This document shows positions 42,901-45,900 of a DNA stretch of 64,000 bases, one piece after another. A model generated the notes under the pieces. That model was not told the origin of the DNA and searched no databases. It saw nothing but the letters and a program-made list of their open reading frames with translations. The number at the start of each line of letters is the position of its first letter. Position 1 is the stretch's first letter. The translations under genes and the position numbers were made by a program. The DNA is from Lamellibrachia columna (lineage: Eukaryota > Annelida > Polychaeta > Sabellida > Siboglinidae): contig OY759270.1 in NCBI GenBank assembly GCA_963662155.1, forward strand, positions 52,817,374-52,881,373. Direction: 5' to 3'.

Positions 42901-45900
42901 AGTTTACTGAGGAGCTCATTTCCTGGCACAGAGCCTCAATCATTTGGGCTGCAGTCAGCGGCGAGACTTGACAAACATCGCATGTTGGAGGTACGTGTCT
43001 TCATGTTGGAGGTACGTGTCTTCATGTTGGAGGTACGTGTCTTCATGTTGGAGGTACGTGTCTTCATGTAGTTTCTTATAGTATTTTCTCATTGGTCTAT
43101 CAGCATGGATCAACAATGTGTGTGGTTTTGCATTTCCAGTCATGTATAGCTATAAATGTTATATATTATTACTTTTACTAGTATCACAGGTAAAATTTCA
43201 GTATGTACCTATTTTATTAGTTGTTTTACGGATCCACAGACCTAATATTTTTATTACTTTTATTAAAAAAAAGTTGTTTATATTTTATTGTGTCATATTT
43301 TAACATGAAACACTTGTCTGCTGTGCTCAAAGAGAAGCCTATGATTAATCAGATTGTATGTATTTTAATATATAATGGTATTCATGTTGTTAAGTCTCCC
43401 TTTTCAGCTAGATCAGTTTCAATGCAAGCCTAACCAAAAATAGTCCTGATTTTTGCTAAGCCTCTTGGCCCAGTGACTCTATTTCACTGTTCATTCACTA
43501 GGTGTCACTACCAAACTCATTGGATGACATTGCAAAGAAAATTACTGATACTGCTTTGTGAAATACACTTGCGTTAGTTTAGTCAACACTTTTATTTGTA
43601 TTTATGTCAGATTTCTTTGTAAATATACAACAAGTTATATAGACCACCTTCCTTGGGCCACAGGCAACTTTTAAACTGGAAAAACTGCATAATATTGTCC
43701 AAAACAGCGTTATCATGAACACTTTTCATGATGATAATTTAAAAGAGTATGTGATATTTTGTTTACTATTTTATTTTTATTTATTCAACCAACCAACCAT
43801 TTGTATAAACTAATAAAAATAAATTAGAACAACTGTTGCCATTTGTTTACACTAGGCTGGTGAGGATAACGCCGGTGAGAAGCCTCTCATCCACAAGGCT
43901 CCCCTGTCCCGGAGTCTAGAGCTGGAGAGCTTCAGGGAGAAGCGTCTGCTGGAGCTGGTGGAGCAGCCTTGGGAGCCGCCCCGCCCAGTCAAGGACGTTG
44001 TCGCACGCAGGTCAGTACAACAACAAGAGACCTTAGTTATGAAGAACGCATAAAAGAATGTCGTTTAACAATCCTACAGACAAGTAAGTTAAGAGGAGAT
44101 CAAATTGAAGTTTTTATGATATTGAATGGATATAAAAATATTGATAGAAATATTTTTTTCTCACTTTAGAAAGATAGAACCTGAGGACACGTGGTGTCAC
44201 TAGTGAAGGATCAGTGTAGACTGGATCAGGAAGTACTCGGTCTCCCATATAACAATAAATGAATGGAACAAATTATCTACAGATTGTATAAATGCTAGCA
44301 GGGTGAATATATTTAAAAACAAATTTGATAAATATATTACAAGGATGGGTTACACATAGATGAACAACTGTTGGACTATCAATAAGCCAATAGTTTCCTT
44401 GTCCACTTGCCGTCTGGGCATTTTGCCTTGGATGGCAATCTTGTTAAATCTTGTTAAAGGTGGCACAGGATTATCTAGGTTCAGTAATGAGAGCAAACAA
44501 ATTAAAAGATTAGCTAAATGTTCCCCAAACAAACTGAGTCTTGTGAATATCCTAATTGTTGCAATACACAAACACATTTCGAATACATAGATAACCGGAA
44601 GTATTCCCCGACATTTCCAACTCTGAGTTACTGCTCTATGTGAATATGATGTGTGTCTGGTTTCATGTGATGCTAACTGGGATATTCTACTTTAAATCAA
44701 TATTTTCAAAGAGCATTTATCATGCAAGATTCTATGATCCAGCAAAAAGATAACAGTTCAGAATAAATGAGAAAGTGTTTCGTTTCAGACCGGACTTGTC
44801 TGGGGGCGCGGCCTACCCTGTGCCATGGAAGCACACTCCTCAGACTCCTGCCAGCAAGAGCTTCCCCATGGAACCCCATCCTAGGGTTATCTTCATCTCC
44901 TCCCGGGTGCCAGCCTCTGAGGTCAGTCTTCCTTCCCCTAGCGGCAGTCAGTGTTCATACCACAGGCAGTGATTTTCATGGGAAATTATAGGGAGTCCAC
45001 CAGACTCCCATTCTGTTCATATCTGGGATTCCGCAGACAAATTTGGGTATCCATACTTTTTCAACAACAACCAGTCCACCATTTGACACCGCTGATGTAT
45101 CTACTTCCTGGCCTGTAATCTAAGATGTGCCATGATGCCCAAATAATACTAACAATATTATTTTAGTGTTTTTATTTACAACCACTTCTTTAGATGTCAT
45201 GTCTAGTGACGTTGGCTATCATGGCACTCCACGCAATTATGCCACTGGCAGTAACTCTTATGCATAAATGATACTGGTAAAACATCAAGTATATCCAACC
45301 CCATTTTATTTGCAGATGACACAAATATGTTTCACTCACCTAAAAATGTTACTCAACAAGGTATCAGCAGGTTTCATTGTAATAAACTATCATTAAACAT
45401 CAATAAAACCAATTTTATAATAAAAAAATACTACAAACAGGTTGTTGCACTCAAAATAAATGGAATTACTATAAATCAAGTCACATCAACAACATTGTTA
45501 AGCGTCTACATAGAAGAACATCTAAACTGGTCACTTCATATTGACAATGTAGCATCTAAAATTGCAGGCATGTAGGCATGCGTTATAACAAATAATAAAT
45601 TAAATGCATAAATTACAGCAATTTTTGTCAGTCTATATATCACAAACCTTGTATTGCTCACTAATTCTCCCACATTTACAGTACTGTGCCTTAATTTTGG
45701 CCAAATACATATCCTTCGAGGATAAATAAACTCAAGATTTTGCAAAAGAAAGCGATCAGAACAGTTACCGAATCTGTTTACATGGCACACACATAATTTA
45801 TTCAAGAGAAACAATTTGTTGAAATTAAACGACATATTTAAATGTCAACTTGGTGTCTTTATGTATAAATTCAGCAACCATATGCTCCCAGCCAATAGGG

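Follow-up and report, generated by a model that had tools for sequence, protein, structure and literature searches.

A probably young minisatellite that lies across a 5′ splice site appears to have multiplied, in frame, the donor of an internal coding exon, and we give about two chances in three to the reading in which the first donor is mostly used, the copies behind it act as rare spares and the array is nearly neutral. The array was found in a 64,000-nucleotide stretch of the Lamellibrachia columna genome (the window, positions 1–64000; the exons and the donor array are given for its + strand), where a 21-bp unit, CATGTTGGAGGTACGTGTCTT, is repeated in 4.24 perfect copies at 42981–43069 and spans an exon–intron border. 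TRF reported 4.2 copies with 100% matches (score 178), and a script showed perfect periodicity across the 89 bp (4.238 copies). The array covers the exon end at 42990 and the GT at 42991, that is, it adjoins the exon and includes its predicted donor. Judged by inspection, a run of four perfect copies did not arise by chance. At up to two mismatches, the unit gave at least four matches in the animal's own genome (880 Mb, 30 contigs), all of them in the array, and a reversed control pattern gave 1 + 1 matches (one per strand), these genome-wide counts being lower bounds. The copy number could in principle be an assembly artefact, or differ on the other haplotype, and we consider this highly improbable, as the array sits within a 57-Mb contig and, being only 89 bp long, can be spanned by one read.

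Each full unit carries the donor 9-mer GAG/GTACGT, which matches CAG/GTAAGT at seven of nine positions, and on the + strand of the window the 9-mer GAGGTACGT is confined to these four sites, spaced by 21 bp. The four donors are identical over 10 bases upstream and 16 bases downstream. Unit 1 (42981–43001) contributes its first 10 bases to the exon and holds donor 1 (GT 42991–42992), likely the ancestral and main one, while units 2 (43002–43022), 3 (43023–43043) and 4 (43044–43064) hold donors 2 (GT 43012–43013), 3 (GT 43033–43034) and 4 (GT 43054–43055), the use of which would add one, two or three VRVFMLE inserts, respectively. A partial unit, CATGT (43065–43069), is a 5-bp direct repeat of the unit start, and the array ends there as CATGT/AGTTTC. 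The frame is open from 42745 through the array, reading (MLE VRVF) four times and then M, until an in-frame TAG at 43069–43071 closes it, a stop that would be read upon intron retention. Each donor would thus end the exon in phase 0 and fits the phase-0 acceptor of the next exon, ACTAG/GCT GGT GAG, at 43856. The first-pass annotation had described four perfect 21-bp units, each with a GTACGT donor, as an in-frame multiplication that lets copy number change without a frameshift, and TRF, the script and the open frame bore this out, with GTs at 42991, 43012, 43033 and 43054 all sharing the reading frame of the exon. In GTACGT, at all four donors (the first at 42991–42996), a second GT lies four bases on, which makes each a GTNNGT tandem donor; use of this second GT would shift the frame.

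The repeat-bearing exon (42743–42990) opens with the acceptor CACTAG/GT, has an open frame, ends at the first donor and would belong to an ECT2L-like gene. An upstream exon (37844–38083) encodes an F-box (PF12937, 7.4e-10, above its cut-off), and a downstream exon (63022–63167) contains the start of a putative RhoGEF (DH) domain, where PF00621 matched positions 63019–63159 below its cut-off (3e-4; 21.5 bits versus 27.6) over the first 28 of 180 model positions, as may be expected of no more than an exon fragment. Since an F-box together with a RhoGEF domain is the combination that we take to be that of ECT2L, the gene name given in the first-pass annotation is plausible, though unproven. These two exons were among six others searched against Pfam, of which three gave no match and one gave a sub-cut-off zinc-finger match (0.026). 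The repeat-bearing exon itself matched nothing in the Pfam or PDB sequence searches, and the next exon (43856–44010) found no relative in the protein collection (one candidate, none scored). The gene model comprises 13 exons with borders set by eye on the DNA, the least certain being the start of the first exon (33715) and the GC donor of the last, whose ends (63022–63167) were likewise set by eye. It places three coding exons upstream of the repeat-bearing exon within the window; the first-pass annotation had called the latter exon 6. The preceding exon (41356–41496) ends in phase 0 and the repeat-bearing exon begins in phase 1, a mismatch suggesting that a small exon was missed, or a border wrongly placed, within 41497–42742; such an exon is left uncounted in the model. 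The intron behind the donors measures approximately 865 bp (42991–43855), and the one before the repeat-bearing exon approximately 1.2 kb, or less if an exon was missed.

The ancestral end of the exon is most likely the first donor. A single relative of the repeat-bearing exon, P0002, was found, being the one of 572 candidates to pass an E-value of 0.01 in a collection of 5.8 billion proteins; it is an open reading frame on a 95.5-kb contig, and a scan of viral contigs gave no match for it. From GEIL to DKHRMLE, P0002 and the exon are identical at 75 of 83 residues (counted by eye), whereas beyond MLE no convincing similarity is left and P0002 lacks VRVFMLE. This divergence directly after MLE points to 42990 as the ancestral exon end, and the comparison with this one relative also suggests that the array probably arose after the separation from it. 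After DKHRMLE, P0002 reads Ala-Ser, so a GT cannot directly follow its Glu codon; judged from these protein letters, GCA-AGT, a GC donor, would fit.

As the four donors share their 9-mer and flanks, local strength cannot decide between them. Published experiments favour the first. In a designed library, splicing went predominantly to the first of two tandem 5′ sites when both were consensus, and it favoured the first at equal strength, although sequence further from the sites can break this rule (PMC6783452). Similarly, five exon-defined minigenes with identical donors and 365-nt introns were spliced exclusively at the upstream donor, and when these donors were weakened the L and XL minigenes mostly skipped the exon while the M and S minigenes kept the upstream donor (PMC9225289). 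The human survey in the same study is more mixed: approximately 60% of alternative 5′ site events prefer the downstream site before control for strength, and at near-equal strength only 60% prefer the upstream site overall, with short introns reversing the preference (PMC9225289). Intron-defined splicing is described there as favouring the downstream donor, and a long downstream intron (>250 nt) as bringing upstream preference whatever the length of the upstream intron (PMC9225289). By the classes of that study, the intron of ~865 bp places the present donors among those preferring the upstream site.

In exon-defined contexts, the choice among equal tandem donors proceeds from the exon side, so the spliceosome would mostly pick the first, ancestral donor here. 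Donors 2–4 most likely serve as rare in-frame spares, with the copies behind donor 1 staying intronic and adding VRVFMLE at each step on the few occasions of their use. We expect this as far as the rule carries over to this animal, given that it comes from human cells with two designed sites close together in one exon and of equal strength, as in the libraries and minigenes cited (PMC6783452, PMC9225289), while the array offers four natural sites 21 nt apart. A middling donor such as GAG/GTACGT might instead lead to exon skipping. We doubt that the last donor (43054) dominates, in which case the exon would be 63 nt longer, with three constitutive VRVFMLE inserts, and the intron would have slid on one side by repeat expansion. 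That donor is the nearest to the acceptor, no unit interrupts the frame, intron-defined splicing and the ~60% of human events lean downstream (PMC9225289), and intron sliding together with tandem duplication was inferred in Drosophila as a source of novel intron positions (PMC2891723); however, the intron behind the donors is long, which is the class where the upstream donor wins (PMC9225289), and P0002 is without the inserts. Predominant use of the first donor remains the preferred reading.

The nearest known system is a VNTR in intron 18 of human ABCA7, which has a 25-bp unit, lies directly beside exon 18 and contains the donor of that exon; a figure legend identifies the unit's first two bases as a donor (PMC5954066). 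It thus resembles the array described here in adjoining an exon, including the exon's donor and carrying a donor in each unit. The differences lie in the unit and its numbers: the ABCA7 VNTR is polymorphic, with ~12 to 427 slightly varying units that shift the frame and a length effect consisting of exon 19 skipping, whereas the present array has four identical 21-bp units, is in frame and is known from the DNA of one assembly. Use of the donor in the second ABCA7 unit, which retains 25 bp and shifts the frame, accounted for 2 ± 1% of transcripts across the tissues assayed; VNTR size had no effect on it in cell lines, while exon 19 skipping rose with size (PMC5954066). Blocking decay substantially increased the frameshifted transcripts, so the figure of 2% underestimates donor use, and retention of one unit is the only later-donor product reported (PMC5954066).

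These data bear on the first-pass proposal that all four donors are usable and yield four isoforms. Comparable use of the four would produce a ladder with zero to three VRVFMLE inserts, its range tracking copy number, and the shared flanks and phase, the lack of a stop before 43069 and the likely escape of in-frame products from the decay that lowers the ABCA7 figure all speak for it. However, the first of two equal donors was predominantly or exclusively used in the tests described (PMC6783452, PMC9225289), and for ABCA7 only one-unit retention is on record, at 2 ± 1% (PMC5954066). We consider such a ladder unlikely, if somewhat less so than dominance of the last donor, and this part of the proposal was not upheld.

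Other repeats are known to act at exon borders or to supply splice sites. In intron gain from tandem arrays, repeats reportedly supply both ends of the new introns; the array shares with these cases the role of repeats as a source of splice sites and differs in that no new intron is proposed. An intron arising within the array, from one unit to the next, was considered and rejected, as 21 bp is too short for an intron. Tandem repeats that sit at exon–intron boundaries and alter splicing have also been catalogued in human segmental duplications (PMC2812944). As in the present array, copy number at the exon edge alters exon/intron structure there, although the variable repeats are said to create novel introns, whereas here the donor of an old intron is multiplied (PMC2812944). 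The Drosophila cases are alike in that coding sequence was duplicated with an AG/GY word near an intron, but they concern settled changes of intron position between species, while here an existing donor was duplicated and the copies are still identical (PMC2891723). Given the ABCA7 VNTR and the segmental-duplication repeats, this kind of array is already known, and the first-pass remark that it had no standard description did not stand (PMC5954066, PMC2812944). The array is a further member of that kind in another genome, and only the frame-keeping by its unit is new: an in-frame donor-carrying repeat was not found in the literature surveyed, ABCA7 being the nearest, which leaves its absence unproven.

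Minisatellites often begin by slippage between short direct repeats. Such an origin fits the terminal CATGT of the array, which repeats the first 5 bp of the unit and is the likely seed; the simplest birth inferred is slippage between two copies of CATGT spaced by 21 bp. One such event would have duplicated the last ten exonic and the first eleven intronic bases, and further slippage would have produced four perfect copies whose identical donors share one frame. The identity of the copies suggests a young array; only two of the 38 minisatellite arrays in the window, the donor array included, are 100% matched. These 38 arrays (period ≥9, copies ≥2.5, merged, the remaining rows among 94 TRF rows being dropped) cover 29.8% of the window, and 20 other 10-kb stretches of this genome gave ~23 arrays per 64 kb and 17.9% coverage, with 17 of the 20 lying on the window's own contig and one being satellite throughout. 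The window lies at 52.8 Mb of this 56.9-Mb contig, on which two of the stretches, at 2 Mb (56%) and at 50 Mb (35%), are array-rich as well and the stretch at 29 Mb is the one that is satellite throughout. Periods divisible by three were found in 16 of the 38 arrays, again including the donor array, so a frame-keeping unit is unremarkable, and the idea that the in-frame period is a product of selection was left unsupported.

Arrays cover 34.3% of the gene region but only 10 of the 2353 exonic bases of the 13-exon model. One of its 26 junctions lies inside an array, versus 8.9 expected, and a count of one or fewer was reached in 0.4% of circular shifts of the array map. Exons and junctions thus seem to have been cleared of arrays, the donor array being the exception among the 26 by-eye junctions. 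We had also considered that an array at a junction might be striking because arrays are rare, and rejected this, since at 34% coverage ~9 of 26 junctions would be expected to lie in arrays by chance. Tolerance would be expected of a repeat that does no damage to the first donor: with that donor unharmed the array would be nearly neutral and could survive at the junction, while the other 25 of the 26 are without arrays. Further arrays come close to exon starts. An array of 60-bp period (40987–41342) ends 13 bases before the exon start at 41356 and so occupies the usual place of the branch point, (TGTGGAAA)3.1 at 62985–63009 ends 12 bases before the exon start at 63022 (its period of 8 keeps it outside the 38 counted), and a 38-bp array of ~38 copies (52790–54231) ends 50 bases before the exon start at 54282.

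The units might also pair in the RNA and bury the donors two by two, so that copy number and its parity would tune splicing efficiency or exon skipping. The unit contains UGGAGGUACGUGUCUUCA, an 18-nt stretch that is self-complementary when G-U pairs are allowed, and the array is predicted to fold as nested stems joining units 1 with 4 and 2 with 3 (z −2.84, none of 200 shuffles being as stable), although these shuffles lose the periodicity, which favours a low z. In the four-copy model all donors are strongly paired, with opening energies of 8.8, 11.9, 10.9 and 12.4 kcal/mol for donors 1 to 4. The predicted cost of opening donor 1 changes with copy number: it is 6.1 kcal/mol with one copy and 7.6 with two, then alternates between 6.8 (three, five and seven copies) and 8.8 (four and six copies), and at 15 °C it is 8.5 for odd versus 13.5 for even copy numbers from 3 to 7. 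However, such self-complementarity was noticed after the fact and occurs in 3.7% of shuffled units, and a single copy is already paired. In controls that kept the donor and shuffled the other 12 bases of the unit (n = 200), the observed values were reached by 25.5%, 6.5%, 14.5% and 4% for donors 1 to 4, so the energy of donor 1 is ordinary, and 29.5% of the controls likewise had donor 1 as the most easily opened. Folding hence leans weakly towards donor 1, which has the lowest predicted opening energy of the four, and RNA structure, once considered as the main mechanism, was demoted to a weak rival that we rate as the least probable of those weighed here. Scarcely more probable is a heritable length dial, in which unit number would set the number of VRVFMLE inserts and pairwise hiding of donors may lead to different splicing of alleles with odd and even unit numbers.

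Should splicing be limited to the first donor, which is the expectation, the array would be an ordinary neutral repeat. It also shows how, in a minisatellite-rich region, a splice junction can come to lie within an array while the gene stays unbroken. Four identical in-frame donors in a row also offer a clean natural test of a rule shown so far in designed constructs; as they are in frame, the count of isoforms would be undisturbed by the loss of frameshifted transcripts. Finally, an array of donors such as this one represents a possible route to exon lengthening.
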